DNA from: an uncultured Geobacteraceae bacterium
GTDB taxonomy: Bacteria; Desulfobacterota; Desulfuromonadia; Geobacterales; Pseudopelobacteraceae
Length of the DNA stretch: 46,267 nt
NCBI GenBank assembly: GCA_903930585.1
Contig: CAIYZD010000123.1
Location: forward strand, 1-46,267
Direction: 5' to 3'
Shown: positions 37,817 through 41,444 of the stretch, in pieces
How positions within the stretch are numbered: the stretch's first letter is position 1
How the letters are laid out: each line of letters starts with the position of its first letter
Translations under genes and position numbers: made by a program
Notes under the pieces: generated by a model
What the model saw: only the letters and a program-made list of their open reading frames with translations
The model's database searches: none
What the model was told of the DNA's origin: nothing

Positions 37817-38106
37817 TGAGTGATACGCCTGAAGATTTACTTGACAAGAAGAACCTTGATTTCATCCTTGACATTCCCTTGCAGGTAACCGTTGAACTCG
37901 GAAGAACCAAACTGCTGGTTAAGGATATTCTGCAATTAAACCAGGGGGCTGTTGTCGAATTAACCAAGCTGGCCGGCGAACCGCTGGATATTTTTGTTAA
38001 CTCCAAGCTGGTAGCTCGCGGTGAAGCGGTTGTTGTTAACGAAAAATTCGGTGTCCGTCTGGTGGATATCGTCACTCCTAACGAGCGGGTGGAGAAAATT
38101 CTGTGA
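37816..38106 (+). CDS. fliN: Flagellar motor switch protein FliN
   Basis: A 96-residue SpoA-domain C-ring protein: LDFILDIPLQVTVELGRTKL, VVELTKLAGEPLDIFVNSKLVARGEAVVVNEKFG and VRLVDIV match the family closely. It lacks the N-terminal extension of longer FliN/FliY proteins. The start is GTG with GAGGGGG upstream, and its end overlaps fliO as GTGA. Confidence 0.96.
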   Translation: MSDTPEDLLDKKNLDFILDIPLQVTVELGRTKLLVKDILQLNQGAVVELTKLAGEPLDIFVNSKLVARGEAVVVNEKFGVRLVDIVTPNERVEKIL

Positions 38107-38522
38107 AAAGTGCGGCCTCCGCGCTACTTCTCTTCCTACCAACCTTAGCGTCGGCTGCTGACAACTCCGGACAGGAGTTCAGTTTTCTGGCAAGTTTTCT
38201 GCAGATGATCGCAGCACTGGCTCTTGTCGTCGGCCTTATCCTGATTACCTGGCATTTTTCCAGCAAACTTATGAACGGTTTGCCGGTCGGGCGGCAGTTG
38301 CTCTCAAAGCATATCCGTTTGATAGAGACCCGCTATCTGGGACCGAAAAAATCCTTGATACTCATTGAGGTCGGTGGAGAATACCTGCTGCTGTCAAACA
38401 GCGAAACCGGCCTGACCTTAATCAAACAGATCAACATGCTTGAAGAGATTGAAGTCATGGAAGAGAAGCGTGAACAGAGCAGCTTTGCCACCCTTCTGGC
38501 TCGTTTAAGGCACACATCATGA
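38103..38522 (+). CDS. fliO: Flagellar biosynthetic protein FliO
   Basis: A 139-residue membrane protein that helps assemble the FliP ring of the export gate. It has a cleavable-looking signal (ASALLLFLPTLASAA), one transmembrane helix (LQMIAALALVVGLILITWHF, about 37-56), then a small cytoplasmic FliO domain (IRLIETRYLGPKKSLILIEVGGEYLLL). It starts with GTG overlapping fliN and ends overlapping fliP by 4 bases. Confidence 0.9.
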   Translation: MKSAASALLLFLPTLASAADNSGQEFSFLASFLQMIAALALVVGLILITWHFSSKLMNGLPVGRQLLSKHIRLIETRYLGPKKSLILIEVGGEYLLLSNSETGLTLIKQINMLEEIEVMEEKREQSSFATLLARLRHTS

Positions 38523-39572: not shown

Positions 39573-40367
39573 ATGTTTCCGCTACTCCCCTTTCCATCTC
39601 CTCGCGAAGTCATTTTCTTTATGCTGGTGCTCAGTCGCGTTGCAGGCATTTTCGCCGCCCTTCCGGTGTTCGGCGGACGTCGGATGCCGGCCCGCATCAA
39701 GGCGGTTGTTGTGTTGATGATTACCCTGGTCTGTTTCCCGACACTATCGGTAGCGCTTCCTCAGATACCGTCCGACGCATTTGGCCTTGCGCTGCTGGCA
39801 TTCGGAGAAGTCATGGTCGGGTTGACGCTGGCATTTATAACGCAGATCATTTTTGCAGCGATCGAATTCAGCGGCCAAATTATCGGCATGCAGATGGGAC
39901 TTACCATCTCATCGATACTGGACCCGTCCCAAGGGACACAAACACAGCTCATGTCGGTTATTCAGACCCTGTTTGCAACGCTGATGTTCCTGTCGCTTAA
40001 TATTCACCATATGTTCATCCGTGCCATTATGGACAGTTTCAAGGTCATCCCGCTCGGCGGATGGCGTCTTAGCGGGGAATTGACTAATATGCTTGTTATG
40101 CGAACAGCTGACATTTTTATCATCGGAATAAGGCTGGCCGCACCCGTCATGGTGGCACTGCTCCTGACAACCATTGCGCTTGGCATTATGGCCCGCGCCT
40201 TTCCGCAGATGAATATCTTTATGATCAGCATGCCGCTCAACATCGGCCTGGGGCTGGTAATACTCGGAATGACGCTGACTATTTTCTTCCATGTTCTTCA
40301 GGTAGCGTTCGGGAATCTTTCCTCTCAGATAGAGGCACTTTTCCGGCTCATGGCAAAGGGGGGATGA
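39573..40367 (+). CDS. fliR: Flagellar export gate protein FliR
   Basis: A 264-residue membrane protein with six or so transmembrane helices. Family signatures include LVLSRVAGIFAALPVFGGRRMPAR, GEVMVGLTLAFITQI, GQIIGMQMGLTISSILDP and MNIFMISMPLNIGLGL. One copy joins five FliP and four FliQ in the export gate. Its TGA lies within an ATGA and just before flhB, whose start is abnormal. Confidence 0.97.
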   Translation: MFPLLPFPSPREVIFFMLVLSRVAGIFAALPVFGGRRMPARIKAVVVLMITLVCFPTLSVALPQIPSDAFGLALLAFGEVMVGLTLAFITQIIFAAIEFSGQIIGMQMGLTISSILDPSQGTQTQLMSVIQTLFATLMFLSLNIHHMFIRAIMDSFKVIPLGGWRLSGELTNMLVMRTADIFIIGIRLAAPVMVALLLTTIALGIMARAFPQMNIFMISMPLNIGLGLVILGMTLTIFFHVLQVAFGNLSSQIEALFRLMAKGG

Positions 40368-40370
40368 CCT

Positions 40371-41444
40371 ACGGCAGAGGATGTAGATAAACACTCCAAA
40401 ACAGAACAGCCAACAAGTAAAAGGCTCGATAAGTCGCGCGAAGACAGTCCGCCGCCGATGAGCCAAATGCTGACGTCGTCACTTACCCTCCTCTCGGGTA
40501 TTGTTTGCCTTTACGTCTTCGGCAGTTTCATGTTGGATGGCCTCAAACAGAATACCGTTAAAATATTGTCAACGATGGGCAATTTTGAACTGACGGAATC
40601 AAACCTCTACGTTCTGCTTCTCAAGCTGTTTGGCACGATTGTTCTGCTGATGGCGCCTCTGATAATAACAATTGTGAGTACTGCAGTACTTTCAAGTGTG
40701 ATACAGGACAACGGCAGACTTGAGTTCATGACGTCTCGACTGAAAGTAGATTTCAGCAAGCTGAGTCCCATGAAAGGTTTCGGGAGGTTGTTTAACAAGG
40801 ACGCCCTTGTCGAGATACTGAAATCGTTGCTGAAATTATCAGTAGTTGCCTGGATCGCCTACGGCGTGATGCGTGACGAAATGCAGAATATTACGTTTCT
40901 GGCAGAAGCCGATATTCAGACTATATTTACTTTTATCGGTCACATCGCTTTCAAGATCGTCACCCACACCTGCGGCATTATGATTGTACTTGGTCTGCTC
41001 GACATGCTTTACGTCAAATGGCGCTATACGGAAAATCTCAAAATGACCAAACAGGAGATTAAGGACGAGCATAAAGAGTCTGAGGGAAACCCGGAGACGA
41101 AGGGCAAAATCAAGAAGATGCAGTTTCAAATGGCTCGGCGCCGAATGACAAAAATAATCCCGCTTGCCGATGTGGTCATAACCAACCCGACACACTTTGC
41201 AGTAGCTCTTAAGTATGACCGCCAAAAGATGGCGGCCCCGATTGTTCTCGCCAAAGGGATGGATATCATGGCCGAGGCTATCAAGAAAATAGCCCGAGAA
41301 CATGGCATCACACTTGTTGAAAACCGGTTCCTGGCTCGTGAACTCTACGATCAGGTAAAAGAGAACGAGCCGATTCCTGAAGCACTTTATGCTGCTGTTG
41401 CCGAAGTATTGGCCTATGTCTACAAGTTGAAGGGCAAGGTGTAG
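40371..41444 (+). CDS. flhB: Flagellar export switch protein FlhB, with non-canonical ACG start or a start-proximal frameshift
   Basis: The 357-residue reading has the conserved cytosolic N-terminus AEDVDKHSKTEQPTSKRLDK, four transmembrane helices, and the cytoplasmic switch domain with the self-cleaving NPTH (about residue 272) in VVITNPTHFAVALKYD. No ATG, GTG or TTG lies in this frame between the fliR stop and an internal ATG at 40458. Starting at 40458 would delete the conserved N-terminus and leave 328 residues. ACG at 40371 has AAAGGGGGG seven bases upstream and gives (M)AEDVDKHSK. Alternatively ATG 40364 (ATGA with fliR) would be in frame if one base in ACCTACG were removed. FlhB controls the hook-to-filament switch together with FliK. 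Confidence 0.9.
   Translation, partial: TAEDVDKHSKTEQPTSKRLDKSREDSPPPMSQMLTSSLTLLSGIVCLYVFGSFMLDGLKQNTVKILSTMGNFELTESNLYVLLLKLFGTIVLLMAPLIITIVSTAVLSSVIQDNGRLEFMTSRLKVDFSKLSPMKGFGRLFNKDALVEILKSLLKLSVVAWIAYGVMRDEMQNITFLAEADIQTIFTFIGHIAFKIVTHTCGIMIVLGLLDMLYVKWRYTENLKMTKQEIKDEHKESEGNPETKGKIKKMQFQMARRRMTKIIPLADVVITNPTHFAVALKYDRQKMAAPIVLAKGMDIMAEAIKKIAREHGITLVENRFLARELYDQVKENEPIPEALYAAVAEVLAYVYKLKGKV

Follow-up and report, generated by a model that had tools for sequence, protein, structure and literature searches.

Where does translation of flhB begin when its reading frame holds no ordinary start codon ahead of the conserved N-terminal sequence? The question is raised by a flagellar operon at about 36.2-41.4 kb of the window, the whole stretch of 46,267 nucleotides analysed here, which comes from a draft genome, fragmented into 854 contigs (93% complete, 5.3% contamination), of an uncultured Geobacteraceae bacterium. 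NCBIfam profiles recognize fliM, fliN, fliP, fliQ, fliR, and flhB above cut-off; the scores of fliL and fliO fall under it. The upstream gene of the pair considered here, fliR (39573..40367, forward strand; TIGR01400, 210 bits, cut-off 169), ends in the stop codon TGA at 40365-40367, and the flhB frame begins directly behind that stop. Read from an ACG codon at 40371..40373 of the forward strand, which we propose as its start, flhB spans 40371..41444 of that strand (357 codons plus the stop TAG). Its product is FlhB, scoring 366 bits to TIGR00328 against a curated cut-off of 349, and the nearest FlhB relatives of this protein are from Geobacteraceae/Desulfuromonadales.

The junction between fliR and flhB

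A preliminary description of this DNA had held that no ATG, GTG, or TTG precedes the conserved FlhB N-terminus, and indeed none occurs in frame before the ATG at 40458..40460 (forward strand), the first canonical in-frame start, use of which would remove 29 FlhB residues. It placed the ACG at 40371, seven bases after a run of G, and direct reading bears out both the spacing and the coordinates. The codons that follow the ACG are GCA GAG GAT GTA GAT AAA CAC TCC AAA ACA GAA CAG, with the translation AEDVDKHSKTEQ. A strong Shine-Dalgarno (SD) site, AAAGGGGGG, lies at 40355..40363 of the forward strand, within the last fliR codons and 7 bases before the ACG. Next comes ATGA (40364..40367, forward strand), whose ATG overlaps the fliR stop and is a possible decoy; because it lies 7 bases 5' of the ACG, it is one base off the flhB frame, as had also been described. 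Overlaps in the ATGA style were said to occur elsewhere in the operon, and they are found, as ATGA or GTGA, between the fliN stop and the fliO GTG at 38103 and between the fliO stop and the fliP ATG at 38519. The free codon CCT (40368..40370, forward strand) separates the fliR stop from the ACG. The two genes share one reading frame, with TGA CCT between them, a point on which the preliminary description is silent. Comparison of sequences indicates that the ACG junction is more than a chance arrangement, the same junction recurring across the family.

Start codon and ribosome-binding site across the family

A search for FlhB matched 34 of 39 genomes in the genus, 68 of 76 in the family, and 118 of 141 in the order. 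Junction DNA was read at 69 loci of the family and in 40 of the 50 matching order genomes outside it. No flhB match was found in five of the 39 genus genomes (G004, G005, G021, G030, G031), and since four of these are listed at 97-100% completeness, flagella may be lost in those five genomes. The window's own genome has, in addition, a short ORF similar to the FlhB C-terminus and set apart from flhB (G000:C474:14156-14383, 91 codons); most same-genus genomes that have flhB contain a similar one.

Start codons at the 69 family loci are CTG at 35, ACG at 29, ATG at 3, and TTG at 2. Two loci, L148 (genome G040) and L149 (G010), both with ATG, were set aside, leaving a clade of 67 rows. Both are divergent flhB copies with no strong SD; L148 falls into a different family of the order on the tree, through transfer or misbinning, and L149, a fragment of 39% identity, has no fliR within the stretch read. 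L126, a second flhB junction of genome G013 (contig C55), starts with CTG and clusters with a different genus of the family; it probably lies on a foreign contig, as its genome is listed at 9% contamination, and it was kept. The start column of the 67-row clade holds CTG in 35, ACG in 29, TTG in 2, and ATG in 1, and never GTG. All 67 were counted directly, the codon alignment being without 7 of the rows at this place because of N-terminal gaps. A codon other than ATG, GTG, or TTG stands at the aligned start in 64 of the 67, a lineage-conserved non-canonical start of the kind described for infC and sigR. The window's genus clade (n=33) has ACG in 29 rows, CTG in 3, and ATG in 1. Sister families of the order start with ATG (38) or GTG (2) at the 40 junctions read, and distant flhB loci from several phyla have a canonical start 5' of the conserved motif in 50 of 50 cases (ATG 41, TTG 6, GTG 3). 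In 7 of 7 relatives, the other operon genes fliL, fliM, fliN, fliO, fliP, fliQ, and fliR show an ATG or GTG at, or close to, the aligned start; for fliL in G002, fliM in G003, and fliP in G037, the codons at or near the aligned place are ATG, GTG, and ATG, respectively. A stop-to-stop extension test of the window's genes flagged 6 of 12 frames, flhB and five others, because neighbours that overlap align as well.

A tree of FliR plus FlhB (quick method, 108 rows) gives the family clade a support of 100. On this tree CTG fills most of the family clade and ACG is the mark of the window's genus, where a single subclade of three rows has CTG; TTG is confined to one pair of sister rows and ATG to one genome (L016). 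An ATG at 40371 in relatives had been named as an observation that would refute the preliminary description. It does exist in this one close relative, but as an isolated change within the ACG clade. The other such observation, one base fewer at that place, is seen in 0 of 67 junctions; L135 has one base more, with the fliR stop shifted as well.

Over a tree of 8.1 substitutions per site the start codon changes 4 times, as against 20 times for its left neighbour and 32 times for its right neighbour. Fourteen kinds of codon, TAA and TAG included, occur just before the start in the 67 junctions, and 11 kinds just after it. This contrast between the start and its neighbours stems from the wider family, since the spacer codon is CCT in 33 of 33 rows of the genus clade. 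At invariant two-fold third bases the family shows a median of 12 changes over 18 columns, none with as few changes as the start, and the genus a median of 7 over 31 columns, 2 of which change no more than the start's second base; inside the genus this neutral comparison is modest. The restricted codon set is backed by 4 codon-state changes only, in genomes related to one another. Downstream, codons 5, 7-11, 13, and 14 after the start encode amino acids that are invariant clade-wide, each through 2 to 4 different codons. The FlhB N-terminus must therefore be viewed as translated. We consider it highly probable that flhB starts at the ACG at 40371, and the best reading of the alignments is that this ACG is a derived form of a CUG start inherited by the family. 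The position of the start is well supported by these comparisons, as are its limitation to near-cognate codons, the strong SD found with it, and its retention through the clade.

The ribosome-binding site ahead of the start is near-invariant in the family. G occupies positions -13 to -10 in 67 of 67 junctions, and -9 and -8 in 66 of 67. The fliR end AAG GGG GGA TGA (n=68) retains AAG in 63, GGG in 66, GGA in 63, and TGA in 66 junctions; the Gly codons of the fliR body are GGC 446, GGG 279, GGA 232, and GGT 229. Pairing to the anti-SD, whose letters had to be assumed because the 16S tail was not found in 10 genomes searched, has a median of -11.4 kcal/mol over the 67 family junctions and of -4.2 (-9.3 to +1.1) over 40 sister-family junctions (p about 2e-20). 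Given these assumed letters, a strong conserved SD of the infC and sigR kind lies upstream of the family's flhB. The 16S 3' end itself, perhaps masked, had no match in the window's own genome and 9 relatives, nearly closed ones included. Most junctions of the sister families have a far weaker SD or none, so a strong SD and AUG loss coincide on the tree. L016, the sole ATG reverter, has AAG changed to ATG inside its SD. Measured against the 10-base anti-SD, none of the other rows among the 67 has so weak a site; with two other choices of anti-SD, another row equals it or is weaker still. SD compensation in L016 would be a single case, not proof.

The G run is predicted to be paired in the folded mRNA window, with a median of 0.68, about two thirds, over the 67 junctions, and such pairing could hide the SD. 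A small hairpin between the G run and bases near the start is not a family feature: it pairs with a probability of at least 0.3 in 25 of 67 junctions, and the median probability is 0.1. Values of 0.5 or more occur in the CTG-start junctions L029-L031, L119, L124, L126, L127, L131, L133, L142, L145, and L146. Local mRNA structure was also tried as an explanation in its own right and rejected, the energies of 9 folded junctions lying within about 1.5 standard deviations of shuffles.

In 66 of the 68 family junctions with a fliR stop read, 3 nt separate that stop from the flhB start; among 40 sister-family junctions the distance is -1 to 12 nt in 37, and computes to 57, 127, and 490 nt in the remaining three. 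At +3 nt the pair has the very short stop-start distance that, like an overlap, marks termination-reinitiation, for which -4 or -1 is usual. The spacer codon is TAA or TAG in L129, L139, and L143, tandem stops occur also in L136, and in L135 the two genes are out of frame with each other. The A at -7 is kept in 63 of 67 junctions and missing in 4, and this A of ATGA is kept far above Gly codon use, the proteins not requiring it. The ATG overlapping the fliR stop is missing in 5 of 68 family junctions, L136 among them, yet that one has an ATG at -7; GTG, CTG, or ATA takes its position in L010, L119, L126, and L135. An ORF read from the out-of-frame ATG is 4 codons long in 27 of the 62 family junctions counted and otherwise up to 291, and no conserved ORF was seen behind it among those 62. 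The ATG is a possible decoy for terminating ribosomes, the composition of the spacer being a dull alternative explanation for the kept A at -7.

Alternative readings of the junction

The fragmentation of the draft genome into 854 contigs invites the suspicion of a sequencing or assembly error, and the preliminary description had itself offered, beside an ACG start, a fresh frameshift truncating FlhB. Error or fresh inactivation can be practically dismissed: the same junction, with the same spacing, recurs in tens of independent genomes, single-contig ones among them, and the N-terminus is under protein-level constraint. Of the two readings offered, it is the ACG start that stands, with ACG in 29 of 33 of the genus clade and mostly CTG in the remainder of the family clade. 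It is scarcely credible that FlhB begins instead at the ATG at 40458, minus 29 residues. That codon is the first canonical one in frame and encodes a Met in 33 of 33 genus-clade rows, but the family as a whole has A, K, M, Q, R, S, or T at the position, the bases just before it (CCGCCGCCG) are unlike an SD, and the stretch that would be skipped is conserved at the protein level both in the family and in sister families that have an upstream ATG. A +1 frameshift of the prfB type involves a conserved slippery codon and a slow A-site codon after an SD. If AAGGGGGG acted as such a site, translation could start at the ATG at 40364 and then shift into flhB, and we take the SD-to-codon geometry of the junction, which resembles that of prfB, to count for this reading, as does the A kept at -7 in 63 of 67 junctions. 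It is nevertheless very unlikely, for no slippery codon is kept, bases -3 to -1 varying freely with 8, 13, and 10 changes in the family; GTG, CTG, or ATA replaces the ATG in L010, L119, L126, and L135; and the landing codon of a shift would not have to be CTG, ACG, TTG, or ATG. Read-through of the fliR UGA into a FliR-FlhB fusion, for which no flhB start is needed, would suit the shared frame and the gap of exactly 3 nt in 66 of 68 junctions. A FliR-FlhB fusion is known in Clostridium (PMC7064499), and NCBIfam has a fused FliR/FlhB model, matched by the window's proteins below cut-off (145 and 283 of 739 bits). One frame with a single stop is not, however, common to all members, given that L129, L139, L143, and L136 have tandem stops ahead of the start and that the two genes are out of frame in L135. 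The linker codon is free in the family and the next codon is limited to near-cognate starts, and the solved gate has the FliR C-terminus in the periplasm and the FlhB N-terminus in the cytoplasm (PMC7064499). Read-through is therefore extremely improbable. A changed initiator tRNA was rejected on the evidence of one locus, which has two tRNA-Met with anticodon CAT and the usual initiator anticodon arm. Plant-type C-to-U editing of the ACG, which is not known to occur in bacteria, was rejected as it cannot account for CTG.

Drift accepts the ACG or CTG start as real and denies it any regulation: with a strong SD, and with FliR supplying the ribosome, it would hardly matter which codon stood there, and AUG would have drifted away after the SD arose. 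The strong SD and the non-AUG start fall on the same tree branch, as buffering would give, and strong SDs offsetting weak starts have been published for GUG and UUG genes (PMC5622118). That survey of closely related genomes reports a tendency of GUG/UUG genes to stronger SDs, and AUG-to-CUG changes numbering 2 in 61,358. Against drift, frequent canonical returns would be expected, since a single step leads from CTG to ATG, GTG, or TTG, and from ACG to ATG, but the 67 rows show only 1 ATG, 2 TTG, and no GTG, while two-fold third positions show their median of 12 changes; moreover, going from CTG to ACG takes two steps (via ATG or CCG) or a double change. Drift without function is a quite possible account, which we would adopt only tentatively, and it is a serious rival where the purpose of the start is concerned, not for the start itself.

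Proposed function and known systems

In what we see as the most likely mechanism for the near-cognate start, the ribosome would terminate FliR at the UGA, three bases 5' of the ACG, and during this termination the 16S tail would pair with AAAGGGGGG in the end of fliR. The fMet-tRNA would be set on the near-cognate codon, either from the terminating ribosome or by fresh loading at the same SD, and the product would be full-length FlhB with an N-terminal Met. Because CUG and ACG are poor starts, normally rejected by IF3, the yield of FlhB per ribosome would be low. It would lean on the translation of FliR, and FlhB would be scarce and matched to the export gate, with its one FliR and one FlhB. 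As FlhB is reported to be present once on the FliP5Q4R1 gate (PMC7064499), a low FlhB dose tied to FliR would make sense. In one E. coli reporter ACG belonged to the codons giving 0.1-1.5% of ATG, and in another CTG belonged to a 31-73% group; start-codon context strongly affected such levels (PMC6925171). Published coupling is strongest where genes overlap, and bacterial reinitiation is described as falling steeply with distance (PMC10666635; PMC6728339): for three E. coli pairs a gap of 2 nt cost 5, 20, and 70% relative to the native overlap (PMC10666635). The +3 nt found here thus permits coupling but is an unusual layout. Throttling, coupling by reinitiation, and IF3 sensitivity are what we infer for the flhB start, and we see the case for a throttling or coupling function as evenly balanced; the preliminary description's expectation that an ACG start throttles a key export protein is plausible. 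The weak start together with the strong SD may be a long-kept limit on the amount of FlhB. It is unlikely that matters go so far that flhB is barred from efficient independent initiation, with nearly every FlhB made by a ribosome just done with FliR, and with the AUG of AUGA decoying most ribosomes into a dead-end ORF and setting a sub-stoichiometric, IF3-responsive FlhB:FliR ratio, as a family-wide device for export-gate dosage.

A core motility gene, flhB, has kept a non-canonical start through a family and later moved to ACG. Gene finders that take only ATG, GTG, or TTG would be expected to clip the conserved FlhB N-terminus in most of that family. If the throttle reading is true, a weak start codon would be one way to fix the stoichiometry of a secretion gate. 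Among literature titles and abstract openings, mostly from outside subscription journals, we found no non-canonical flhB start and no conserved bacterial ACG start.

The precedents for such a start are infC and Streptomyces sigR. Non-canonical starts are repressed by IF3, and its gene infC itself has one, ATT in E. coli and ATC in Streptomyces (PMC5472188). Of the 31 infC loci read in the family, L192 (contig C332 of the window's own genome) and L214-L243, 23 show, by the same kind of reading as for flhB, an apparent AUA start preceded by GGAGGTG or GGGGGTG; the remaining 8 were not located by motif. This apparent AUA start makes it probable that these cells do initiate at a near-cognate codon preceded by a strong SD, and likely that near-cognate starts in the family are under IF3-type control. 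The flhB start resembles that of infC in being non-canonical, the family's own infC apparently using AUA behind a strong SD; the two differ in that infC is autoregulated by its product, whereas flhB has no known role in initiation.

Closest among known systems is Streptomyces sigR, which starts with GTC in 32 of 34 genomes and GTT in 2, behind a strong SD, and is repressed by IF3; given an ATG start, it yields about 4-fold more reporter product (PMC5472188). It shares with flhB a lineage-conserved non-canonical start behind a very strong conserved SD, and a two-gene unit, the ratio of sigR to its partner protein being one that matters. In sigR, however, the weak start is a GTC on the upstream gene, whereas flhB is the downstream gene and uses CUG or ACG, and repression by IF3 is a property of sigR that is proposed for flhB.

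Termination-reinitiation pairs (PMC6728339, PMC10666635) also have stop and start close together, an SD inside the upstream gene, and products that are partners of one complex. Those pairs overlap mostly by 4 or 1 nt, unlike the junction described here, with its +3 nt, its non-canonical start, and an out-of-frame AUG where ATGA usually lies. The natural FliR-FlhB fusion of Clostridium (PMC7064499) likewise ties the synthesis of FlhB to that of FliR, but does so in one polypeptide, where the bacterial family described here has two, separated by tandem stops in some genomes.
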